Part shown: positions 6,355 through 55,081 of the stretch, piece by piece
How the letters are laid out: the number at the start of each line of letters is the position of its first letter
Numbering within the stretch: position 1 is the stretch's first letter
From: Salminus brasiliensis
Lineage: Eukaryota > Chordata > Actinopteri > Characiformes > Bryconidae
NCBI RefSeq assembly: GCF_030463535.1
Contig: NC_132893.1
Span: 18,150,027 to 18,214,026, forward strand
Length of the DNA stretch: 64,000 nucleotides
Reading direction: 5' to 3'
Program-made: the position numbers and the translations under genes
Notes under the pieces: model-generated
Told to the model about the DNA's origin: nothing
What the model saw: the letters and a program-made list of their open reading frames with translations, nothing else
Databases searched by the model: none

Positions 6355-8652
6355 ATGAGCTCTAGTGGCCTTGCTCTGGTTGCCAGCCGCAGCAGCCGAG
6401 AGAACATCTCTGCTCAGGCAAGGATGGATGGTCCTCGTGTGAAGGCTGGGCAAAGAGTGGTTTTGGGTGTCTTGACTGAAAATGATCACTATAACAGGGC
6501 TTGTAACCAGGTGAGGCTTTGCTTAAACTACACCCCCCCCCCCCCCTGTCCATGTCCATGTCCCTAACTGCAACTGTTGAGTTATATGTTCAAATATGTC
6601 TTTATAAGGGTGTTCCTGCTAAACGTGGATCAGGACCTCACAATGTGTCTGGCCTTGGAATCAACACCTCTCACCAGTCCAACTCTACAGTTAGTGCTCA
6701 GGTGGCTGAGCCAGTGCTTGTACAAGCACCCAAACCTACAGGAGAAGAAGCTGCTGATCTGCTTATCCATTCCTCAGCGCTTCAGATGCTGAGTACTGTG
6801 AGCGGCTTCAGCACAGGTCAGCTTTTGGCGGTGTCTATTGCGGGAGTGTGCTTGGGCTGTCTGAGTGTCCAAATTATAGCTGGGGTTTTGTGTGCAGGAT
6901 CATGCTTGGATGCTTCAATGCAGTCCCTGCCAGAGGAGGAAGTGGCTTCTTCTGAGGATGTCTTCTCTGTGTCTGAATATGCTGAGGACATCCACAGGCA
7001 CCTTAGAGAGAGTGAGGTCAGTGTTGATGCTCTAAAGTCTTGCTTTTGGGGTGGGGGAGAAATTTGTGTTGGTCTCTGTTCCTTGCCCTATTAACTGTCT
7101 GCTTTCTCTTCCAGCTGAGGTACAGACCAAAGCCTGGCTATATGAGAAAGCAGCCAGACATCACCAACTGTATGAGGGTCATCTTGATTGACTGGCTGGT
7201 GGAGGTTGCTGAAGAGTACAAGCTGTGCTCTGAGACTGTCTACTTAGCAGTGAACTACCTGGATCGCTTCCTGTCTTGCATGTCCGTGCTCCGTGGAAAG
7301 CTGCAGCTTGTGGGAACTGCAGCAATACTTGTGGCTGCGTAAGTGAAGGTCTGAAGGAAGCTTCTCTTGCTTGAAGGGTGGCCCTAACTCTGTCTCTTCT
7401 TCTTTAGGAAATACGAAGAGATCTACCCACCAGAAGTGGATGAGTTTGTCTACATCACTGATGACACTTACAGCAAGAAGCAGCTGCTGAGAATGGAGCA
7501 CCTCATCCTCAAAGTGCTGTCCTTTGACATGACTGCACCTACAAGTCACCAGTTCTTGATGCAGTATGTCTTGGTAGAGCGTGTCTGCACTGAAACGGCA
7601 AACCTTGCCTTGGTAAGCCTGTCCGCAAATGTTTGTGCAACATGTGGTGCTTGTACTGGGTCTTGAGCCTTGTTTGTCTCTCTAGTATCTTTCAGAGCTG
7701 ACCCTGCTTGAGGTGGACCCCTTTCTGCAGTATCTTCCTTCCAAGATTGCTGCTGCAGCTTACTGTCTGGCTAACTACACACTCAACAGGGCCCTATGGG
7801 TAGGACTCCTCACTACTTCCCTGAACTAGAAGGGACTTTCCCTGAAGGTAGCCACTCTGGCTTGGCTAGTGTTTGCTCTGGGCATCTAGTTTTGCTAAGG
7901 ATAATTTGAGACAGTAACCTGGCTGTCTTGCCACAGTGTAGTTACCTTTAGTCAGACATCTCAGTGCCTTATGGGCTTTATGCTGCTTTTTGGAGTTTAT
8001 CAACATTGGCCTCACTGTAGTCTCCCAAGGATGTTGCATGATCTTTGCCTTAAACAGCAAATTGGTAGTTAATAGCTTAGGTGTCCATGGTCTGTACCTT
8101 AGCTTCTCAAATGTGCTTTTACTCTTGTCAAGTCTGTGTGCCAACCTGGAGGCTCCTTTGGCACCCCTTTAAGGGTCATGTGACCTTTGACAGTCCTTGC
8201 TTTGATCGATGCATGACTTGGCCATGCTTTACTATAGGAATCTGTTCTGGAACTGTCTTGCAGCAAATTGCATGTATTGAAGGGTTTCTTAGACTTTACT
8301 GAGGCCTTGCAATGTTCTGACCTCTCTTCCCACAGCCTGATGCCCTGTATGCCTTCACTGGCTACTCTCTGGCAGAGATTGCACAGTGTTTAATCGCACT
8401 ACATAAGCTCCACCTCAGTGCTGCAAGTCGTCCCCAGCAGGCCATTTGTGAGAAGTACAAGAGCGCAGAGTAAGTCTATAGGCTGGCTTTCTCAGGGGTT
8501 GTGACTCCTATGCGACATGTCTTTAAACATTTTCATCAATGCAAATTCAGATTTGTGCAGTACTGGTTGAATACAGGAAGTGCTTTCCTTGCTCTTTCAG
8601 GTACTCCAGCGTCTCCCTGATTAAACCAGTGGAGAGTCTTCCTCTGCACTGA
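6355..8652 (+). CDS. ccna1: Cyclin A1, 8 coding exons
   Basis: Coding exons: 6355-6510, 6609-6816, 6898-7016, 7115-7338, 7408-7612, 7686-7799, 8336-8469 and 8601-8652. They total 1212 bp (403 aa), all introns are GT/AG and phases are compatible. The product is the cyclin A regulatory subunit that activates CDK2/CDK1 in S phase and meiosis. A destruction box of the form RxxLxxxxN is at residues 34-43 ([10 protein letters not shown]). The N-cyclin box begins about residue 160, with the hydrophobic patch MRVILIDW at 181-188 (MRAIL in cyclin A2, MRTIL in human A1) and then [14 protein letters not shown] and [22 protein letters not shown]-terminal cyclin fold follows and ends in [14 protein letters not shown]. 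Human A1 is longer (465 aa), mostly at the N-terminus. A1 rather than A2 is chosen from synteny with spart and dclk1. The first ATG is used; Met24 is an alternative. Confidence 0.93.
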
Positions 8653-9660: not shown

Positions 9661-10195
9661 ACGTTTTCAGTTTCAGGGTAAATAGTGGCGTTTATGATGC
9701 TCGTTTGACGATTTTAAGTCACTGAAGTTTTTCTATTTCTTTTTTTTTAAGTTTTCGTCTAAGTTTTGCTTGGTTCTCGCTTGTCCTGCGCGTGCTAAAG
9801 GTGGGTGGTGGCGGCTACGCCAGCGCCACTGTGGGGTTATGCTATGTAGCTAAATAAGATACAAAATTGAACCCGTTAACTATTTTTAAGAGACATGCTT
9901 CTGGTCACTGCTAGCTGTAGGTTTTAGCTCGCACTAGATGCCGAAGGCTACTTGTCTGTCAGGTAGAACCAGTTGATCTGACGCAAACAGGTGACTCTAT
10001 AAATAGCCTGTGAATTTGCTGTTTTACCATCGTTAACCATTCTTTAACCTTCATTTTATTTTATTTAATATGACCTAAGCGTGTTTAGTTATGGTAATGT
10101 GTGCTTCCTCATTCATGAAGCTCTCTGTCATTCCCTTTCCAATGAACGTTGTCTAGGTCTCGCCCCTTGAAAACACTTGAGCTCTTAAGGCAGAC

Positions 10196-13100
10196 ATGGA
10201 AGCTCCTGAGGCCTCTGAGCTGCAGGCCGTCGGGAACCACTATGAGAATGCGTTTGAGTGCATTAACATGGGACTGCTGGAAGATGAGTCCGGGAACAAA
10301 GGCAGAGCTGTGGTGCTGTATCGCCTGGGCCGCCGACATCTCCTCCAGGGTCTGGAGGTGCGCACCCATGGTGAGCGGTGTGTGGGAGAGGATTGGGACT
10401 GTGCTCGCCAGATGCAGCAGAAGATGAGGGAGAGCCTCAGCACCATCACCGCTCGGCTGGCTGTGCTGGAGACCACCTCGGCCACAGGGGCCCAAGCGCT
10501 TTATCCGAGCCTGCCGGTCCTCCAGGAGCCTTGGAGACCAGCCAAGGCCAGGAGGTCTCAGGTTAGCTGCAGGCTGTTTCCTACGGCTTCTGGAGGCGTT
10601 CCTTATCCGCCAACCACCCCAAACACGGCCTCTGATGTACCCAGTGAGCTGCCCCCAGCATACACCCCTCAGCCCACAGACGGGCACCTCTCACTTTCTT
10701 ACAGGGAAGGGAAAAGTTGGCCTTCGCTACCAAGACCAAAGCAGGTTTCCCGCAGTCAGAGTTTGACAGAAAGTGGGGAGGATCTCCTGTTCCTGCCCCA
10801 TGGGGTGCAGATATTCTTTGTGACGGCTGATGGCCGGGTCAGCGCTCCTTCGTATCCGGGGTATCTGCGCATCATGCTGAACAGCAGCCAGAATTACCGT
10901 AGCAGTGATCTCAGTGATAGCAGGCGTCCTCCTGCTTACCTACAGGTGAGTAGTTTTACATTGAAGGCATATGCTTAAATAGACTGTCATGAATATGAGC
11001 AGTAACTACACTATATAGACAAACGTATTGGGACACCTGCTCATTCATTGTTTCTTCTAAAATCAAGAGTATTAAAGTATTAAGAGTATTAAAGTTTATC
11101 CTGCTTTTGTTGGAGTAATTGTCTCTACTGTCCAGGGAAGGCTTTCTGCTAGATGTTGGAGCATTGATTTAAGGATTTGATTGCAGTCAGCGCCAAGAGC
11201 ATCAGTAAGGATGTTGGATGATCACTACCCCATTTCATTTCCCTAACTCACTGCTGGTGGGGCTTTATATGCCTCTAACCCACACCTGGCATTAACCATG
11301 GTGCCAATAGGTTCATTTCTATCTACTTCAAAGAGCCCTATTATATTAGCAGTTGTTTTCTACAGGGTCTAGACAAGTTGATTGTGTGTGTGTTTGCACA
11401 TGTGGGTGCAACTTAAAGTAGCTGTAATGCATTCATTAGAAAGTGTGTCCACAAACATTTGAACATAGTGTATAAGAAACTGACTGTAGTATTAGTATTG
11501 TTGTTTAATTAACTATATAACAGTCCAGGGTGGCTGTTCTTAAGGGGAAAATCTACCACATTTGTTTGAAATGTAAACAAACAAAAAAGGTCATTCAGAG
11601 TGATTTGGTGTGACTTTTTGAGTCAGAATTGTTTGTCACAGTGGTGGTGACACCTCAATCATATTGCATAGAAAAGCCCACTTACAGGAAGCTATGACAA
11701 AATGTTGTTACAAATATGCTGCCTGACACTTGAGGCATTGTTTTACAATAAGCCTTTTTTCCAGAAGTCGACCAGTTTTTGATTTTGGCAGTTATGTGTT
11801 GCAGTTGGCTCTTGCTTTTAATTAGCTTTTCATGTTGTTTACCTATGTAAAAATATTAGGTTTATTTACACATTTAAAGAATAAATTACATTATGTTGCA
11901 TCTTTGAAAATTTAAATGAGCATAAAAATTGGTAATACAGTGGGGCACAGTTTCCACACTGTTTATAAGTTGCTGCCTTGTTGTGTGTAGTGTATTTCAA
12001 TAATCTCTTGCTCTCTGCTATGACAGACGGGAGTCTTTACCCTTTAAAAGCTTCTATCTGGTCTGGAAATTGCCCTAGAAAATGTCTTTTTCCCTAAATA
12101 CCTAAAGTCTCAGTCAAATGGAGCATATTGCTCAATTTGAAAGGCACAGAGAAATTTCTGGAAAGAGGGATGGAGGGAGGAAGACCAGAAGGTTCTATCA
12201 GCATTCATTGTAGTGTAGCCCTCACTGCAGTTTCACATTTCACCTGCCTGCTTTGAGGCCTATTAAATCTAATGAGAGAAACTGTGTGTTTGGTTTCCTG
12301 TGTTGTTGGTATGTTGAGAGGCTTGTTGACACAGAAACATTTTAACTTTTTTAAATTATGATTATTATTATAAAGTAATTATGAGTGTGGATTACTTTGG
12401 GGCAGATATTTTGCTGTTGTGAGCCAGGCAAAACTGCAATTTTGAAGGAATATGGCCATTTAATTAAAAATTAAGTACTAGTATTAGAGCTTCCTTTGAC
12501 TTTTTAACTAATGACAGCATGTAATCATTTTTGTTTCTTATAGCAAGTGGATATTTACAAAAAAAAAAATTAACACCACCTACTGTGGTGTAAACTTTTA
12601 TAATGTGCATTTATTTCGATATTTCTCAAGGTTTGCCCTGGAGACTGTTCAGAATTCATTTTTTTCTCTACTTTTTTCATCCAATCCTCAAATGTTTTAG
12701 GTAACTGATTTAAAAAAAAAAATTGAGATTGAAAAAAAAAAAGAAATTGAGATTGAGGGCTGTGTTTTGTCAAGAAACTGGCGATACAATGCATTTCAGT
12801 GTACAAGGGTTATCGATATGCTGCGACACTGTGGGCAAGGCAATATATTGTGCTTCTTTTTTTTTTTAATCAAATTTTAGGAAAACTGCCAGTATAAAAA
12901 TACCATCATATGCATGAAATCCCAGTACAAGAAAAGGTAACTGTTAATGCAGTCAGAACAGTGGGATCTGAAGACAGTACAACACTGCTATATAGCTATC
13001 AGGGTTTTAACACGACACTAAGTGAACCACTGTCTGCCACCAATCTTTACATGTAAACTTTCTGTTCTGTCTATTTTCTTGTGCAACCCTTATTTTTTTT

Positions 13101-19100: not shown

Positions 19101-21775
19101 CTTGTAAAACCATGCACCAAAACAAAGATTTTAGTCCAGGCACTTAAAGAGCCCGCTGCACTTGTGGCTTCTGGATAGTCAGTTCACTATTCAACTGTGA
19201 CACCTCAGTATAAACAGTGCAGAGCTTTTGGAAATCCAGGCTAAAAGGTTTCTCTGGTTCTCCTACATTTCGAGAATTTGGGCCTTTGTCAGTTAGTGGG
19301 TTACCCTGTGTTCGGTCCATTTCGTTATGCTTTTAAATGTCTTTTGGTTTAAATGTGTGTGATGGTCTAGTTGATGGCCTATCCACTGTGGTCGAACGTG
19401 TGGGGAAGGAGCTGACGCCTCACGTAAAGAAGCATGGCAGCAAACTCATCCCGGAGTCCCTAAAGAAAAATAAAGACGCTTGCACCAACATGGACGGAGC
19501 CAAAGTGGTGGCTGCAAGTAGCCTAAAAGGTTAGTGTATCTTTGCTTCACAGAAGCTTTGCCTATTTTCTTTTCAAGTATTTAATAATTGGGTATTTCCT
19601 ACTATGTGTATACAGATGTATACTGTTTATATACACTTCAGGGTTGTCAACCATATGGTCAGGTTTGGAGACAGCAGCAAAGACAGTTGGGAAAAGTGCA
19701 AGCTCAGAGACAGTGCTGACTGTCAAGCACAAGTAGGTGTTTGTTTGTTTGTTTGTTTTTTGCTTCTCCATTTTTTGAGTGACTTTCAGATTCTGTTATC
19801 TTCTATGATCTTTTACATTTGCTTACCTGTCCTTTCAAAGATTGATCCTCAGATTGGTGCCTCACTCAATGCGCTTGCCTCACTTGCACTGCTTGGGAAT
19901 GTGGTTTAATCTATTCTTAATTTGTCTTTCTTTCTTCCTTTCTGTCTTTCTTTCTTCTTTTCTTTTTAATCTTGCTTTTCAGATTTAAGGGTCTAGAAAG
20001 CATCCTGGACCCCCCTAGCAACATTTAACTGGTGGAACGTAATAACACTAAGTGGAAAAAATGCATAAACCAACACTCTCTGGCCTCAAGTGCCTTATTG
20101 TGCAGTGTATTTTCCCATTCTAAAAGTTATATGACAGGTGTCTGTTTTTCTAAGGCACCCTGCTAGTTACCCATGCATTTGTCTGTGAATTACACCATAA
20201 TTCGTGTCCAATAAACAGACAAATTGAATAATGACGTGTTTGCTCTCTCTGTGCTGTTCACAATTAACTGTTACATGCTAATAAGGCACATAATTCCTCT
20301 ATTGACTTTTTCCCTGTAGTAATATCACCAACACACCTAACCCTAATGTAAAGGGGACATATCAGTCATCAGTGGGTGTGCACCTGCATTTGGGCATATG
20401 GAGTGCCTACCAACTCACAATCTGTGAATAAGATCAGGTTTTGAGGGTTCTTAGGAGAGAAAACAGAGCATTCAACATGCTGTTTGGTTTTGACTATGCT
20501 TTCTACTTCACAAGCTACAGGGACAGACACCATTAACCTGAATGAGAAGGCTCCCATTTAGCTCTTTTTTGGGTGATGTGTTTTAAAATGTACTACAGCC
20601 ACCAGAAAACTGAACTGCAGACAGTTAAAAAAATTAAAACTACCAACATCAAGAATATGTCAGTACTCATTTGATGATATAAAGAAAAGCCACTCAAACC
20701 AGTCATTCTGAACAATCAGTCTAAAGGAGGCTGCGGCGCTTAATCCTTGTGGTACTCATGTCACAGTTAATTATGGAAAAGGGGTACAATGTCACCTTTA
20801 ACTGTTTCTACACTCTATAAAATTGCTGGGCGTCTTGGACAGGTTTAAAAATGTAAAAATAAACAGACAATGGATCCCTTCTATTACTAAAGAACAACAT
20901 CACCAGTTTGTACAGAAGTGCCTGTAGTTACTGAATAATACACCTTGGTATGTAATAAGCCTTTCTGTGTGGTTAAAGGGGTTAAATGCTAAATTCTGGG
21001 TAATCATTGAAGTAAATATCGTCCATGTACACACGTCTTGTCACATTGTGTGTGGAAACATTGAGAAAACTGAGATGCTAGCTCTGCAGCTGTTTGGCTA
21101 ACATTTACAAAAATATTAAAAGAAATTTGAAACAAATATATCTCAATGCGAATGAGAGTTGTGCTCTCGAATACCCTGGTGCCCCAGGCCCAAGTGGTCT
21201 AGTTTAAAAAAAAAAAAAAAAAAGAATCATCCATACCATTTCTGTTCTCAATAGCATCCTTAACCCATTGGCTGGCTTGTTGCAGACAGTAATACAGTGG
21301 CTAAACTACTCATACACTGCCCAGCACTGTGGAGATAACCCAACAACACACATTAACCCAGTGGTTAGACCCAGTATTGCAGAAATAACAACAACAAAAA
21401 ACATAAACCCACAGGCTAGCCCCAGCACCTATGTAGAAAAAAGACAACCCAGCACTTTTTGGAGTATTTTTCCCCTCAAACGGACTTTCACTAACTCCCA
21501 CTAACTGCAGCTAGTCAAAGCCATAGGTCATCTCACCTGCTCTTGGTTGTATGTGATTAAGGTATGGGGATCAGGCCAGCCAGGCTACAGACACGGCCGT
21601 CCAATCAGTGGTCAATGTGGGCGTCACTGCTTTCAACATGGACAACATTGCTCTGAAGGCTGTTCTGAAGGGTGCAGGAAGGCAGGCCTCAAATGAAATA
21701 ACAAAAGATGACAACACCACCAACCAACAGCAGCCAGAGAAGATGACTAAGAGAGAGGAGAAAAAGGGACAATAA
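10196..21775 (+). CDS. spart: Spartin (SPG20), 7 coding exons
   Basis: Coding exons: 10196-10945, 15368-15562, about 16524-16686, 18180-18374, 19371-19529, 19642-19732 and 21562-21775, about 588 aa against 666 in human. The product acts at lipid droplets, endosomes and the cytokinetic midbody; loss of the human protein causes Troyer syndrome. An MIT-type domain spans about residues 10-95 (NHYENAFECINMGL, ARQMQQKM). Next come a proline-rich linker with PPAY at 153-156, the LLFLPHGVQIFFVTADGRVS segment (about 197-216) and a second PPAY at 245-248. The C-terminal senescence domain covers exons 3-7, with PEWSEKMSQSILAGAS, KQATGGAAKVSHFL and ELTPHVKKHGSKLIPESLKK. The start of exon 3 is uncertain. 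The AG at 16523 keeps the frame after exon 2, while the stronger-looking AGs at 16455 and 16530 would break it unless a small exon is missed. The tail is lysine-rich. Confidence 0.92.
11006..11474 (+). mobile_element. Miniature DNA transposon, copy A
   Basis: A non-autonomous element of about 470 bp in spart intron 1. It starts ACACTATATAGACAAACGTA and ends GTGTCCACAAACATTTGAAC plus ATAGTGTAT, so the ends are imperfect inverted repeats of the form ACTATAT-GACAAA-GTATTGGGACACC. Internal blocks (CCTGCTTTTGTTGGAGTAA, CTGTCCAGGGAAG, GGTGCCAATAGGTTCAT) recur at 28003-28479, 40783-41262 and 63731-64000. No coding capacity. Confidence 0.85.
11475..15367. other. spart intron 1, remainder
   Basis: No exon was recognised. 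It includes a low-complexity, repeat-like region at 12560-12900 (A runs and GATTGAGATTG words) and a (CA)n run at about 14803-14825. A tandem GTCCCTCCAT duplication lies near 13806-13826. The open frames here carry no recognisable domain. Confidence 0.6.
14803..14825. repeat. (CA)n microsatellite
   Basis: Short CA dinucleotide tract in spart intron 1, within a wider stretch rich in CACA words. Confidence 0.85.
16015..16310. repeat. Dispersed fish repeat in spart intron 2
   Basis: The stretch with CCACCACAGAGCAGGTATTA, CACTGCAGTGACACTGACAT, GTGGTGGTGTGTTAGT and AATATCCAGCCAACAGC is of a type I recognise as a widespread, non-coding fish repeat. No terminal repeats or coding capacity were seen, so the class is unknown. 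Confidence 0.55.
17455..17810 (-). mobile_element. Tc1-like transposase fragment, antisense
   Basis: Read on the minus strand this matches the internal part of the Tc1-like transposase gene also seen at 31850-32500 and 48779-49560. Shared words include ATTCCATGAGATGTTGGA, TTGGATTCAGATCTGGTGAC and TAAGCCATTAGAAGATGAGT. It lies in spart intron 3, has several stops and lacks both ends. Confidence 0.75.
17811..18179. other. spart intron 3, 3' part
   Basis: No repeat or exon was recognised between the Tc1 fragment and exon 4. Confidence 0.6.
18375..19370. other. spart intron 4
   Basis: No exon was recognised. The centre (about 18840-19020) has A-rich CAAACAGGACAAG and GACACGAAAG words that look like a worn dispersed element, but no ends were identified. 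Confidence 0.5.
20512..20560 (+). pseudogene. Partial duplicate of spart exon 3
   Basis: This 49-bp stretch in spart intron 6 matches 16549-16597, inside exon 3 of the same gene, at 46 of 49 positions by hand alignment. The shared core ATTAACCTGAATGAGAAGGC continues to CATTTA. Read in the exon's frame it ends in TAG where exon 3 reads TACCCC, so it would truncate the protein if included. Flanks on both sides are unrelated to the exon 3 flanks, and no splice sites of good quality were seen. I infer a local partial duplication on the same strand. Confidence 0.85.
20561..21561. other. spart intron 6, distal part
   Basis: No exon was recognised. A poly(A) run lies at about 21205-21221. The region 21250-21450 contains repeated ACCCAGTGG, ACCCAGTATTG and AACCCAGCAC words, resembling a worn small element built on a GGGTTAACCC-like motif. 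Confidence 0.5.
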
Positions 21776-36424: not shown

Positions 36425-36625
36425 AAGCACTTAACACTAATATGGCTCGGGTTATGGTCTTGGGTTCTTGTGCAGCTCCACCAAAGTTACTGCATTCCGG
36501 TCCAGAGTTGCAATGGAGGACGTCCATCAACATGATTTTGAAACTCTTAGGGTAAAATTGCTATTAAAAAAAATTAATCAACATAGCTGTCTATTTCCTG
36601 CTAGGGCTCTCACCTTTTGGACGAA

Positions 36626-38440
36626 ATGGAGGAGCATTTTGATGAGAGAGACAAGGCTGAGCGGAAAGGCCGTGGCGGTTCACGGGCGAACGGGCTGCCG
36701 AGTCCCACCCACAGTGCCCACTGCAGCCTCTACCGGACACGGACCCTCAGGACCCTTAGCTCGGAGAAGAGGGCCAAGAAGGTGCGCTTCTATCGCAATG
36801 GCGACCGCTACTTCCATGGCATCGTGTACGCCGTGTCCAGCGACAGGTTCAGGTCATTCGACGCCCTGCTGGCTGACCTCACGCGCACGCTGGCTGACAA
36901 CGTGAACCTGCCCCAAGGGGTCCGGACCATCTACACCATAGATGGCTCCAAGAAGATCACCAGCATCGAGCAGCTGGTGGAGGGTGAGAAGTGAAGGGGC
37001 TTATTGTTGTCTGAATGTCCAGTAGGCCGTCATGTCTTGATGTACCTTGCTATATCTCACTGAGCAGAAGAGTTTTCATGATGATTACACAGAGCCATCT
37101 CATTAATCACGTACACAAAGTACACTATGGTACAGAGCAGTTTCCGGTACAGCTGAACAGCACTGCATGCATTGAGCCACACACACGGCTGATTGACAGG
37201 TCCATTAAATTCTGATGGAGTGTCGAAATGCTTGGGACAAATCGATACGATTTGGGAGACGTCAATCAGTTGGTCCTGGCAGAGTGTTTGTTGACTTTGC
37301 CCGAGTGTATTGCCTGTGGTGCTTTCCCTCAGACGCCTCTTTTGAAGCGTGTGATTACATTGTTATGTAGTCGTTGTTATGCCTTAAGGCTTTAATATCA
37401 TGTAAAGGTCAGGCTTATGTAGGTATTGTTAACAGTTTCACACATTTTCATTCGTTTTAGTCTGTTGTACACTGACTGAAATGGCAAATAATGGCCATTA
37501 ATTTCATAACTAAGGCAGCATCTTCACCTGAGCTGTACATCCTGTCTATAGCTCATGTTTGGACAAGTTATTGTTTGAGGCAGGCAACTAACATGCTAAG
37601 CTCTGTCAATTAAATTCAGAGAAAAACTGCATCCCCTAAGGAAAAAAGGTTAAAGGCTACTGTAACCAAAATATGTCGCACTTTTTATGTCCCAGGTAAA
37701 CGTTTTTAGCATCTACAGAAGTAAGACGGGCAGTACTGTGTCTGATTTAGTGAGGTACCAATAGATAGAAGTGCTAATAAACTGTATAAATTTATTGCTT
37801 ATATTATACGATTATTATTATTGTTAAATGATTCGTCCATCTTGGATTTGGAACACCGGGTCGGTGAGGCTCTCCTGACTTTCTACGTAGGAAATCCGTC
37901 TTGTGGAGGCATTCCAGTTGAAATGTCCTACTTGGGACGTCTCTCTGTCCAGTTTTCTGGCTGTGACAAGTCTGACTTTAGAAACCGCATGTGTCTGTGA
38001 TACATTTCGTCATAGGATTGTCTTCAATAGTCTGATATTGATATAATGTTGAAATTGTTATGGAGCCACTGTTTTTTCTTGGTTTCATTCCAGGAGAAAG
38101 TTATGTGTGTGGGTCTATCGAGGCCTTCAAAAAGCTTGACTACACCAAGAACGTCAACCCCAACTGGTCCGTGAATGTGAAGGCCTCCGCCACCTCCAGG
38201 TGCCCTCCATCGCTGTCCAGCTCCAAAACAGGGCCCGGTGAAGCCAAAGAGTGCAAAGACTTCATCAGGCCCAAACTGGTCACCATTGTACGCAGCGGGG
38301 TGAAGCCGCGCAAAGCCGTGCGCATCCTGCTCAACAAGAAGACGGCGCACTCGTTCGAGCAGGTGCTCACTGACATCACAGACGCCATAAAGCTCGACTC
38401 TGGTGTCGTTAAGAGAATTTACACCCTGGAAGGAAAGCAG
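36626..38440 (+). CDS. dclk1: Doublecortin-like kinase 1, first two coding exons (partial)
   Basis: Coding exons 36626-36983 (119 codons plus 1 base) and 38094-38440 join in phase to give 235 aa. Exon 1 encodes the family N-terminus [19 protein letters not shown], then [12 protein letters not shown] and the first doublecortin domain from [15 protein letters not shown] (about residue 51) through [13 protein letters not shown]. Exon 2 encodes [28 protein letters not shown], a variable linker, and the second doublecortin domain ([19 protein letters not shown] to [12 protein letters not shown]). These domains bind and stabilise microtubules in neurons. The remaining DCX tail, Ser/Pro-rich linker and kinase domain lie beyond 64000. 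DCLK1 rather than DCX is chosen from CGSIEAFKK and from synteny. Translation starts at the ATG equivalent to human Met7; the context CGAAATGG is good. Confidence 0.93.
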
Positions 38441-40061
38441 GTAAGGAAGTCTCCGATTGTTGTTTATTTAGCTTTAGACGAACTGCACTGCTCTCTGATG
38501 CCCTCGCTGATGTTCTGAAGAAATACTGCATAATTATCATCTAAAAGGGCCAGGGGAAACCTTCTGCTGGGTGTTGGTGTTATCGTTCATCCTGTTGATT
38601 CAGTGAAATTGCTTGATGAGATTTAGACCAAGATCAGTCTTGTGTATAATTTAATCAGTGGAGGTTTGATCACTCACCAATCAGCTGTGGACTTTAACCG
38701 GTGGTGATCTTTGAACCTGGTGCTTAAAGCAAACTAATATATCACTCAAGCTCTCTATTTTCTAGTCCTGGATGAGGCAAATAACAAAAATAGTCTTTAA
38801 AAGTATTTAAATAACTATGTAATTAATTCCTGGACTCTTAATATTTGGCAAACCTTAACCCTCCCTTTTACGTTGCTGGTCAAATTGACCGCCCCTCCCC
38901 TCAATTGTTCAGGTCATGTAAAACAAGGGTAAAAATATAAAAATAATTTTTTTTTAAAATTAAGACAATGATTGAAAATAAAAAAATGACAGAATTAGTA
39001 AGTAAATATAAGTAAACCATGTTAACGTTAAAATAAAAAAAGATTACGCTAAATATTGATGACATTAATATTAATATTGTACTTCAGGATGGTTAAACAT
39101 GCACCTGGTCAGTTTGACCCAGACATATTATTGCTGTTTCTTACAGTTGTTGAGCATAACAGGAGGGTTATAGGTGTTTTTTTTTTTTGTTTTTTTTTTG
39201 TTTTTTATATAAACCTCTTCTCTATCTACTCCATCTGCACTAGTGCTGCATGATATTTGAGAAAGAAACTGACATGGTTGCCTCCCCCCCCAATATATAA
39301 ATATGAATTTTCACTAGAATGTGTGCATGATATTAATAATGCAATCTCTGAATCCAAGACTAAAATAAAGACCATATTTATGATTTTGAACAGAGAATCT
39401 TCCTCTGATAGAAATGGCATTGAACACAAGAAGAATAGAATTTTCTTTTTGCATTAAGCAGCAATTGTTTTTTTTTTATTTAAACTGCCTTACATGACAT
39501 TGGGTGTCTTGCCATGTGGTTATTGTGCATGCCCAGATAACAAAACTGAAACGATAGCCCTAATCTGCACAACTGGCTTTTTGAGATAGAAGGGACAGAA
39601 TTTGGCATTAAAAAAGTGAGTCACAGTTTTTGTTGGTACAAAGTAACATTAGAACGTTAGAATTGTTGGTAATCAACCGTATGATACCTACAACACATTT
39701 TACAGTGTAGTTCCTGTATTTTTTTAATTATTATTTTTATTTACTGTAAGTTTCAAACAGGAATCAGTTTAGTCCAGTATTAGCAGGAGCATCTTTTACA
39801 GTAAACCCACTCGTCCAGTTTCTAAAGGAGTGTTTATATTAAGATCTGATCCATGTGGGTCAAACACTGCAGAAAAAGCTTGGCTCTGACCTGTAGGCCT
39901 CTCTGATGGGAGAGATGCAGGGCTTTATGAATGAGAGTCTGTGTCTGTTCCCACGCAGACTCCAAATCTGTCAGCCGCTCGCTCTCACCTCACAGAAATA
40001 GCTCCACATTCACCCTCTTTTAAATTCCTCCCACCTCTCTGTACCTTTCACACATCTGCCA

Positions 40062-49560: not shown

Positions 49561-50259
49561 AGATCACATTTTCCCTCATTCTGATGGTTGATGATTAGAT
49601 TGATTAGATTCAATTTAATTGCGTGAATGAGTTGGTCTACAGTGAGTGTACATTTGTTGGATTACTTAAAACACAACCTAAGAATGATCATGCTTTGCTG
49701 CTTATGGGGCATTAAGACATCCAGTGATTGGTTAAGATCATATTTATTTTGTAGACCTCCACAATATCAATACTGTAAAGGCTAACGTCATGATAAAGGT
49801 GACAAAACTGTGCTGTGCAGCCCTGTTGCACAAGTCCATTGTTGTTTAATATTACTGTTACTGCTAGACCATTCAATTACCTAGCAGATAACATTTTTAA
49901 AAGTTTATGTCTTTTTACCTGGGGCTAGATTTACGACATCCATTGTTAGCTAATGCAGTGGCAACCAAAGAATTTTAACAGATCTAATCAGTAATCACAG
50001 TTTAGTAAATCTGACTCTAGTGGACCTGGTCATATAGGATAAGGGCAAGCGTATGTTGGCTGAATTTGCATCTGGCATTGGAATGCTTGTACACTGGCCA
50101 CCAAGTGGGCTTACTTTTTCCATTTCCATTTTTCCATTTTCCATATGCATATATGCATATTAGGCACTTATGTTGCCAGTCCTGGTCCTGGAGTATCATT
50201 GCCCTGCATAGTTCAGAATTTCCTCTGTAGTAGTTCGCACTCAAGAATGGGAATGAGGA

Positions 50260-50280
50260 TTCAGCACTACGGACAGCTCC
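50260..50280 (+). promoter_or_regulatory. RE1/NRSE-like site 1
   Basis: Left half TTCAGCACT, spacer AC, right half GGACAGCTCC. The canonical RE1 bound by REST is TTCAGCACC, two bases, GGACAGCGCC. There is one mismatch in each half-site, and the half-site spacing is exact. Confidence 0.6.
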
Positions 50281-50632
50281 ACCGTCCAGCCTGACTGTTT
50301 ACTCATTCTCTATTACTCTGTCAGATTTGACACTACTTTGCCTGTCCTGCAACACAGAGCATTACCTTAGATTCATGGGCCAGTGTGGTATGGTAGTCTT
50401 TGTAAAGTGCTAAGAAGGCTTCAGCTAATTTTCACAAACTAAGATGGGCATTGTGTGGAGGGAATGTGTGGGAGCATATTGAAGATGGAGGTGGGCAGTG
50501 GTACAATCTGCCTGGTCTTTTTGGCTGATGCCTTCCATTTGCTTAGAAAGCCAGCCTTTATGATGAGGCATCCACCTACGTTTATGAGTTGCATGATGTC
50601 TCGCTTCATATGGCATGATTTTGTACCTCCAC

Positions 50633-50670
50633 ACACACACACACACACACATACATATACACACATACAA
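50633..50670. repeat. (CA)n microsatellite
   Basis: CA units with ATACATATA interruptions. Confidence 0.9.
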
Positions 50671-50740
50671 GTGTGGGCTGACATTGGTGCAATTTATAAC
50701 GTCCTTACGTCAGTTCATTCCCTACACCTACATGTGCGCC

Positions 50741-50772
50741 CACACACACACACATACACACACACATACACA

Positions 50773-50808
<36 letters not shown>

Positions 50809-50812
50809 AACA
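50741..50812. repeat. (CA)n / CACATA compound microsatellite
   Basis: CA units with regularly placed TA steps, giving a 10-12 bp higher-order period, then CAAACA words. Confidence 0.9.
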
Positions 50813-52535
50813 CACAAACCTGCTGGTGGTGAGTCTCCACATGGTTGTGGGATGTATGTATGAGTGTGTTGGCTTGGCGAGTCGCACAGCATGTCGCCAG
50901 CTGACCCTATTGCGTCATGTTGCGCTTCTCCCTACCCCAATCTCACCTGGACTCAGAGCAGATTACCTGCTGCCCTGGTAATTCAAGCTGTGGAACACGA
51001 GCCAGAGTGGATACTCCTGGATCAAGGATCATTGTCTCACCTTCCAAACCTTTCAGCAATAGGCCGGGCACTGCTAATCAACTGTGACAAATTAGCTGTC
51101 TCTTTTTTTTCTTTAATTAATTCATTCATTTGTTTGATTTTTACTGCCCCTGCTAATTTAGTCATATCCTCCCTCTAGATAGGTTCCTCTCAGCACACAG
51201 CCAGAAGGGTGACATGTAAAGTGCTGCCAGATCTAATGCAATGTTACTGGATGTGCTAGCTGGGGTGTGATTGTGTGGAGGTATTGTCACCATGAAAATA
51301 TTATAACCACATGTCAATTAGTTTGTTTCAACATTTTGACGTTGCTGTGTATGACCAGGTACGTCTGGACTGCGACTGGAGTGCCCGCCTTTTGGGAAAA
51401 ATGGCTCTCCCTTTGCACTTAAAGTGATACTAGCCAGAGTGGCCTAGTCTGTTAGCTGATGCAATGGAACTAGCAGTTCGCTAGCTTGACCTCCAAGCCT
51501 GACGTTGTGTTAGCGGCAGTTTGAAAAAGAAGTGACTCCATCTAGCCCCATAAAGGTGGTGGTCAATGCACGCCGCAGCACTGAATCTATTGAGAAGACT
51601 GTTGTGGCACCACATGTGGAAAGGTATTGATTTAAAGTAATTTGTCCTTATTTGATTGAGTTGCTGTGTGGAGATACTTTTCCAGTGTTCTTGCTCTTGT
51701 ATCTGTTGTTGCCTGTGGTTATGAGCATGGGAGAAAGCCAGGTGAACAAGGCTGAGTAGATTGTAATCAGAGAGCGAGACCGAGACAGAGAGACGCTTCA
51801 TTTACATTGTAATAAGATCTTCTGTGTAACTGTAGGGCTCTTAACTGTGTTGCTCGTTTGTGTCATTTTAGTGTCATTTGCTCTTTCATTTGCTATTACA
51901 AAACAATTAGTCATAGATATACATATTACAGGTACAGAGAGAGAGAGAGAGTTGGAATTAATGCAGGCATGCAAATGCATTCATTCCTTTATCTTTTTCA
52001 TAACATGCAAAATGATGCAATATATTGTTTCAGCATCGTTATCGTAATGCGAACATGCGCAATAGTCACGTTGCAGGATATGCAATGGATCATGTTGCTG
52101 GATACAAATGGAAAAATTCACAATTTGTGACTTTCTGTGACCATACATACATTATACCTGCAAAACATTCATTTATTTGACTCCAGTATTGAATATACAC
52201 AATACATTATTAATATGCTGATGTTGGATCCCTGACTTCTGGTGAACTCTGGTGAAACCCCCCTGTGTATTTTAATATTGCAATATAAACTGAAAAGAAA
52301 AACAATATTGGAATGTCAGTTTTTTTTCAAAATTGTTCAGCCCTAGAGTGAATTATATTTCAGCCATTTCTGTCGTGCCCAGAGGTGTTCGGAAAGTAGA
52401 AATAAATCCTCCCCAAGACTCTTTAACAAGAGCCGTCCAGGCCGTTTGAACAAAATTGCTAAAATGTACGCTGTGGTTCTGAATATGACCCCTCTGGTCC
52501 TGACTGCATTTAGACTGCAACAATACGAATGGGAG

Positions 52536-52556
52536 TTCAGCACCATGGACAGCTCC
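52536..52556 (+). promoter_or_regulatory. RE1/NRSE-like site 2
   Basis: Left half TTCAGCACC (perfect), spacer AT, right half GGACAGCTCC (one difference from GGACAGCGCC). This is a near-consensus binding site for the neuronal repressor REST, 2.28 kb downstream of site 1 and on the same strand, in the intron of a neuronal gene. Confidence 0.75.
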
Positions 52557-55081
52557 ACATACAAACTGAAGCCAATACTTTTTGTGAGTGTCAGTAAAAC
52601 GCTGGAATAAGGAACCACATAGATTCTCTTGCAGATTTCAGAATGCCATTTTATCTCTAAAGTATTTTACTGAGCAACTTCACACTGACCGATGCATCAT
52701 TCCGTTAATACGGACGGAAACTGAATTATACCCGTGATTCTATTATTGATTGCTATGGGATGTAGGTATTGCTCTCTGTCAGCCTGTTTGCTGATCATCA
52801 TGTGGCAGCATGGCTGAGTGTTGTATGTATGTTAATTGGTCTCATTTTTCAGTCTGCTAGCATTTGTCAAGCAGTCTGTCAATAGTGTGTTACCCAACAG
52901 TGTCTTCGTGAGCCTTGCTTGCTCTTTGAACATTCTCTGTGTACTGGCAGTTCTATCTTTCCTTCTGTCTGCTAGCTGTTTGTCTGCCTGTTGATGATTG
53001 ATCACCCTTCTGCTGTGAAGAGTAGGCCTCAACTGATATCGGCAGCCCAGCCCTGATTCATCGGTATGGGTAAAAATCATGAAGATAAAGCACTGAAAAT
53101 GGATGGCTTGTATTATATTGTATTAGACAAGCACCTCCTATGTTCAGATTTAGAGATTTCCACCCTCTGTTACTACATAAGAATAAACCATATTATTTAA
53201 GGTATAGAACAGGTTTATTCAGCATAAATGTATAGAAGCTGATTTTACTTTTATGATGGTCTCACGGGGGTATTTATTTAGAATGCTAAAAACATGGCAT
53301 GCTAAATATTGAAATATTAAATATCTAACAGTGTGGGTAAGTAATGTATTTTTTTAAATAATGAACATAAGACAGCTGCACTCTTCGTGGTATTTTACTG
53401 ACTCACCAGTCTGTTGTATGTATCCCTCCGACAAACAAGCCATTTCCACACCCACTACCCATGCACATTATCATTGGAATTAAGCTCAACACAGATGGCA
53501 ACCTGTGTGACAGGTGCGATATTACGAATATGGCATTTTTTATATCTTATTTAAAAAAAATTAAATATCTCTGTATCTTTTAAGATATATTCCCCATGTC
53601 TAGCACACACTCAACTTCTCAGGTCTGGTTTCCTTGCACAATATGCCATTCCTGAGCCCACTTTCTGATGTGTGCTTCGCTAATAATCACAGGATATCCT
53701 GAAGGAAATGATTTTGAAGAATACAGCTGGTTAGCTTGGGATTTAGCCTAGCACGTATACTCGATTTCTGATGTTTTTAATTCATCTGGTATTTTCTTCA
53801 TGGAGAAGACCAGGACAGCACATGAAAGATTATGACTTCTTATGCTTGTTAGCAACATTAGACTCGTAGCTCCAGTTTAACAGAGAATTAGTCCAATTTA
53901 GACACCAAAAATGACTAAAATTCGTAGAGCCATTTCTTTCAATTGTGACCACATAAATTGCTTTTTCATTATCCGTTATTAAAATCGTAAGCTCGTTATT
54001 GGTCCCAAAACGTTAGATCAGCCAGTTCCTGTCCCCAGAGCTAGCTTTCTGCCTGTTAGCAGATGGGTCTGCAGTTAAGCTAGAACAGTGAGTTAAGTCA
54101 TGTTGGGACACTGAGGTGAGCAACAGAAAGGCAGAGAGCTGGGGATCAATACTGGTCCCTCTCACTGTAGCCAGCTGTCAAAATCACAGAGTGTTGTTTA
54201 CACACCACCTAGCTTCAGTCTGGAGCTTCCAGCCTCTGAGAACAGGGTGCTAAAATGCAATCGATGATGCATCACTGCAGTGCGATGCCACGTGTGCATG
54301 TACTGTAAAAAAAAAATATATGACAGCCTTTCCTACAGGAAGGAAAAAACACTCAATTACCATTTGTGCTGTGCACACACATGAATTTGACCTCCACCTT
54401 AAACCCGTCTGTGCAGTGAACACACCCATACATGCACTAGTGAGCATGCACACACTAGGGGACAGTGAAAACATGGCCCTGGAGCGGTGGGCTGCCCTAG
54501 CTGCGGCAAGCGGGGAGCTGTTGTACTGCTCAGGTGTGCAACATATTCTTAAGCATAATATAATAATCATGGTGTAGTATAACTTAATATAGTCATATAT
54601 AATATAGTCAGGTTAAGTTGACTCAAATTGCCGTATTTAATTGAAACGACACAACTGACACAAACTTTCCGCAGTTACATGCATTTGTTAAGGGACATCA
54701 GTGAGGGAAGAGTGATGGTCATTTGGACATAGACTGTGCATTATATATATTTTTTAAACCTTACAATAAACCTTACAATTACACAGCCCTGGATTTAGCC
54801 AATCAGATGCTAAAATAGGCATGTGTGTTGTGGCATAGCATCATTAAAACAGACTTGTATATGCTAACATCTTCTGATATGTACTCCCAGTCCTGATGCT
54901 TTCTGAAGAAGATTAGTTTTCTGAGTTGTCCTTTAAGACTGCACCTCCCTCTCTCCTTCACTGTCTGTTCCTCTCCCCGAGGCCAAGAAGGACTTTTTTT
55001 TAGAGATAGTTTTGCCGCAGATGGAACTTCTCTGAGTCTATAGCAGTTGTTTTTTTTAAATCTGACAAAAATAGCAAGCCC

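Follow-up and report, generated by a model that had tools for sequence, protein, structure and literature searches.

Two candidate RE1/NRSE silencer elements 2.3 kb apart in a large intron of a fish dclk1 gene

REST/NRSF is described as binding a 21-bp element and recruiting the CoREST and Sin3A complexes with their histone deacetylases (PMC4430910), and many neuronal genes are reported to carry REST sites in their introns (PMC4430910, PMC4055426). In zebrafish, NRSE sites, whose canonical form is printed as TTCAGCACCACGGACAGCGCC, are described as restricting or biasing transgene expression to neural tissue in a REST-dependent manner (PMC3529185). A report on human fibroblasts names DCLK1 among the targets of REST, in passages that leave the basis of the assignment unstated (PMC5538296). 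Two promoters are reported for human DCLK1, one at the 5' end and one in intron V (PMC12332081), and the gene is listed among those targeted by microRNAs (PMC5128196). The main text of PMC2573930, PMC2687797, PMC4430910, PMC4055426 and PMC3320604 makes no mention of DCLK1, and a limited search of literature pairing DCLK1/DCAMKL1 with REST/NRSF returned no description of RE1 sites in dclk1.

Here, we have analysed a dclk1 locus of a fish in a window of 64 kb, by which we mean the whole stretch of DNA under analysis, together with 120 kb added downstream of it (184 kb in total, covering the traced dclk1 exons). An open frame at 36605..36994 on the forward strand contains the dclk1 exon that encodes the start and the greater part of the first DCX domain (matched by tblastn at 36623-36988), and the next exon, with the end of the first and the start of the second DCX domain, lies on the same strand at ~38084..38443, its limits being those of the tblastn match. 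With a human DCLK1 sequence as the tblastn query, the two DCX exons match at 85% and 80% identity, and kinase exons matching human DCLK1 were found by tblastn at 93963-99944 of the extended locus. DCX domain matches are present in both exons. The top match of the first exon was the longest doublecortin chain, 4atu (213 bits), which also came first for the second exon; DCLK/DCAMKL1 chains (143, 143 and 136 bits) ranked above the short doublecortin chains for the first exon. Judged by its sequence, the gene is a doublecortin-family kinase, and its two DCX domains are followed by a CaMK-like kinase that is nearest to DCLK1, with human DCLK1 as the sole reference of the whole-gene comparison. The large intron downstream of the second DCX exon, as delimited by the tblastn exons, runs on the forward strand from ~38444 to 64199, is 25.8 kb in length and ends ~200 bp beyond the window; the exon at its 3' side, placed by tblastn at 64200-64298, starts 200 bp beyond the window end.

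The RE1/NRSE consensus is TTCAGCACCNNGGACAGNGCC, and this pattern, with its 18 specified positions, was used for scoring. When both strands of the window were scanned, two sites came within three mismatches of the pattern and the next-best matches had four; no further match within three mismatches was found in the 120 kb added downstream. Site 1, TTCAGCACTACGGACAGCTCC, at 50260..50280 on the forward strand, has two departures from the consensus (C to T at position 9 and G to T at position 19) and keeps 16 of the 18 specified positions. Site 2, TTCAGCACCATGGACAGCTCC, at 52536..52556 on the same strand, has one departure (G to T at position 19) and keeps 17. Both have the left half-site TTCAGCACC, a 2-bp spacer and the right half-site GGACAGNGCC, in the canonical order and spacing. 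A sequence-only reading of this DNA had claimed two such sites with both half-sites correctly ordered and spaced, the second of them one base off, and we find them as it described. The sites are ~2.3 kb apart, and lie ~11.8 kb (site 1) and ~14.1 kb (site 2) downstream of the exon ending near 38443.

With the RE1/NRSE elements bound by REST/NRSF, the dclk1 sites share the order of half-sites, the 2-bp spacer, most of the specified positions (17/18 and 16/18) and a place in the intron of a neuronal gene, but they differ in the T at position 19 of both sites and the T at position 9 of site 1. The tandem canonical RE1 motifs described for Snap25 are likewise a pair at a single neuronal gene; those motifs, however, are placed within 1 kb of the gene (PMC2573930), whereas the dclk1 sites are separated by 2.3 kb and stand over 11 kb inside an intron. 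The human DCLK1 reported as a REST target is the orthologous gene, but the passages on it name no site (PMC5538296).

How often such sites would arise by chance was estimated with a first-order Markov model, by which the window should hold 0.0024 matches at two mismatches or fewer. For the 25.5 kb of intron downstream of the second DCX exon the expectation is 0.001 with at most two mismatches and 4e-5 with at most one, in agreement with the earlier claim that a 21-bp match of this kind is not expected by chance in 25 kb. Across the genome searched (1.066 Gb in 103 contigs), TTCAGCACCNNGGACAGNGCC has 2361 matches within three mismatches (1163 + 1198), compared with 250 (140 + 110) for the reversed control. 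Since the Markov model, scaled to the genome, predicts 631 matches within three mismatches and the reversed control gives 250, the model, judged by this control, overstates rather than understates chance.

Spelling variants were judged by counts within the same genome, in place of a published matrix. The class TTCAGCACNNNGGACAGCTCC, which includes both window sites and leaves position 9 and the spacer free, has 61 matches genome-wide, both window sites counted, and none for the reversed control; the spelling of the dclk1 sites thus belongs to a class in excess of chance within its own genome (61 against 0; 2361 against 250 for the wider pattern). At position 9, these 61 matches have C in 49, T in 10 and A in 2, again with both window sites counted. 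Among the matches listed, the exact 21-mer of site 2 occurs at five places including the window, and that of site 1 in the window alone. Also among the matches listed, 19 of the 56 single-mismatch sites differ from the consensus at position 19, seven of them with T, while position 9 is altered in none of the 56. We had considered T at position 9 to be disfavoured on the last of these counts (0/56 among the matches listed), a view overturned by the 10 of 61 sites of the class TTCAGCACNNNGGACAGCTCC. Because of these counts, T at position 19, alone or combined with T at position 9, can be regarded as a variant used by the RE1 population of this genome. Of 59 RE1 sites read in the genome, 55 have C or T as the second base of the spacer, and both window sites fit (C and T).

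With the excess in the genome, the Markov expectation and the traced exons taken together, the claim of RE1/NRSE elements inside the large dclk1 intron is well supported, and we read sites 1 and 2 as ordinary members of this class. Both are probably bound by REST. We consider it likely that REST binds the two elements in the dclk1 intron and thereby reduces expression of the gene in neural progenitors and in cells other than neurons. We infer that the zinc fingers of REST would bind both sites, with site 2 probably the stronger of the two, and that bound REST would recruit the CoREST/HDAC and Sin3 complexes, which in turn could lower dclk1 transcription in non-neuronal cells and neural progenitors. 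In the simplest reading, the two sites would help to hold dclk1 low outside neurons. That REST uses both sites to restrict dclk1 is plausible and agrees with the reports on the human target and on the zebrafish NRSE. If the sites are bound, REST control of DCLK1, as named in human cells (PMC5538296), would extend to fish. The general picture of REST is unchanged by the dclk1 sites, which offer a concrete, testable pair of candidate silencer sites for a neuronal gene.

Compatible with REST binding, and not exclusive of it, is a different account of the pair, in which both sites are true RE1 descendants of a local duplication, with only site 2 still mattering and site 1 in decay. We regard this account as possible, though doubtful. 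It draws first on the surroundings of the sites. A repeat search (family D3) placed the sites in the two copies of a 41-nt direct repeat, at 50242..50282 (site 1) and 52518..52558 (site 2), both on the forward strand, which align without gaps and are 80% identical. The short similar words upstream of both sites, mentioned in the earlier reading, are present as GAATGGGA, which occurs on the forward strand of the window at 50245 and 52527 only and on the reverse strand once, at 20113; from the end of the word to the start of the site there are 7 bp at site 1 and 1 bp at site 2. That the word could be part of an extended RE1 was considered and rejected, as it is absent within 25 bp upstream in all 59 other RE1 sites read (from 48 loci, with seven of the sites from array L022). 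It was likewise not found within 30 bp of any of L066-L073, several of which are the same sites as among the 59. The GAATGGGA words may reflect a common origin of the two segments, or may have arisen by chance.

Outside the RE1 itself, the upstream flanks of sites 1 and 2 are identical in register at 12 of 18 bases, an agreement that none of 1035 pairs formed by 46 other RE1 loci (arrays L005 and L022 left out) reaches. A shared upstream word of at least 8 bases is found in just 6 of these 1035 pairs, and the gapped, anchored upstream score of the window pair is reached by 3 of them and by 17 of 3000 random intron pairs. When either window site is compared with the 46 loci, 12/18 is never reached on either side, the best upstream values being 8 and 9. 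The extra mismatch of site 1 speaks for the account as well. Against it, the flank test was picked once the repeat had been noticed, the downstream flanks agree at only 6 of 18 bases, and the combined upstream and downstream score of the pair, 20, is equalled or exceeded by 6 of the 1035 unrelated pairs. Moreover, site 1 scores higher with another locus, L059 (25), than with site 2 (20), and unmasked blastn with site 1 likewise places L059 (E 7e-6) ahead of site 2 (E 4e-4). Also against it, 10 of the 61 class TTCAGCACNNNGGACAGCTCC sites have T at position 9. The upstream agreement suggests an old local duplication for the dclk1 pair, which is a fair guess and unproven.

Other close sets of RE1 sites in this genome bear on the same question. 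The matches listed for contigs C1 and C2 and for the first part of C3 include 64 RE1 sites with at most one mismatch; 11 of these, grouped in five clusters, are within 2.3 kb of another, against an expectation of ~0.1 with the length of C2 set from the last site listed there. We read these five clusters together with L022, L033 and L035. In seven of the eight sets, one or more pairs have flanks that agree, on one side, at 12 or more of 18 bases; the best value in L033 is 11. Because seven of eight sets share flanks, local duplication is frequent in such close sets. A broader proposal, that RE1 elements multiply by short local duplication in this genome and that the dclk1 pair is an old case with its cores kept and its flanks decayed, is tentative, and we think it rather unlikely. 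If it were true, the second dclk1 copy would be a reinforcement of REST control favoured by selection, and not an accidental gain.

Less probable still, and in our view improbable, is that the RE1 was brought to the intron by a dispersed repeat or transposable element. The locus L059 (G000:C1:91824881-91824901), a class TTCAGCACNNNGGACAGCTCC RE1 on contig C1 that gave the flank score of 25 with site 1, shares 11 of 18 downstream bases in register with it (window 50260-50301), and the two match at 73% across 67 bp, a stretch that takes in the RE1 itself; site 1 and L059 are possibly one dispersed repeat, to judge from this likeness. In addition, the 55 bp just upstream of site 1 (50173-50227) are matched at 71% by positions 136679-136733 of the extended locus (E 0.003), and may possibly be a degraded dispersed repeat. 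On the other side, a search with 50161-50420, in which very common words were skipped, found nothing but itself in the genome at E up to 0.001, and the upstream flanks of seven other class TTCAGCACNNNGGACAGCTCC loci are, by eye, unlike that of site 1. An origin of site 1 from a high-copy repeat is unsupported by this genome search, the limits of which, with the likeness to L059, leave some room for it.

That sites 1 and 2 are chance matches without REST binding, as might be argued from both being off consensus at position 19, is very improbable, and a chance origin is rejected on the counts given above, namely the Markov expectation, which at up to two mismatches is 0.001 for the intron, the 2361 matches against 250, and the 61 class TTCAGCACNNNGGACAGCTCC matches against none.

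Some RE1 spellings in this genome stand in arrays. In L022 (G000:C4, near 3074020) they are repeated at steps of ~41-45 bp, and at G000:C15:554033-554113 there are three RE1 copies 30 bp apart. Since some near-perfect matches are units of tandem arrays, at which REST does not have to act, a good RE1 spelling does not by itself amount to proof. At L057 (G000:C1:40036098-40036172), an inverted repeat contains two identical RE1 sites that face opposite ways, 54 bp from each other, and their upstream bases are identical at 18 of 18 positions. In L062 (G000:C3:1818041-1818527), three RE1-like sites fall within 0.3 kb, and their downstream flanks are identical at 17-18 of 18 bases.

Upstream of dclk1, the window contains exons of a cyclin N-terminal domain (ccna1-like) and, by eye, a spartin-like open reading frame, at 7028-7663 and 10181-10975; the MIT match of the spartin-like frame was below the cut-off. 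This neighbourhood corresponds to human 13q13.
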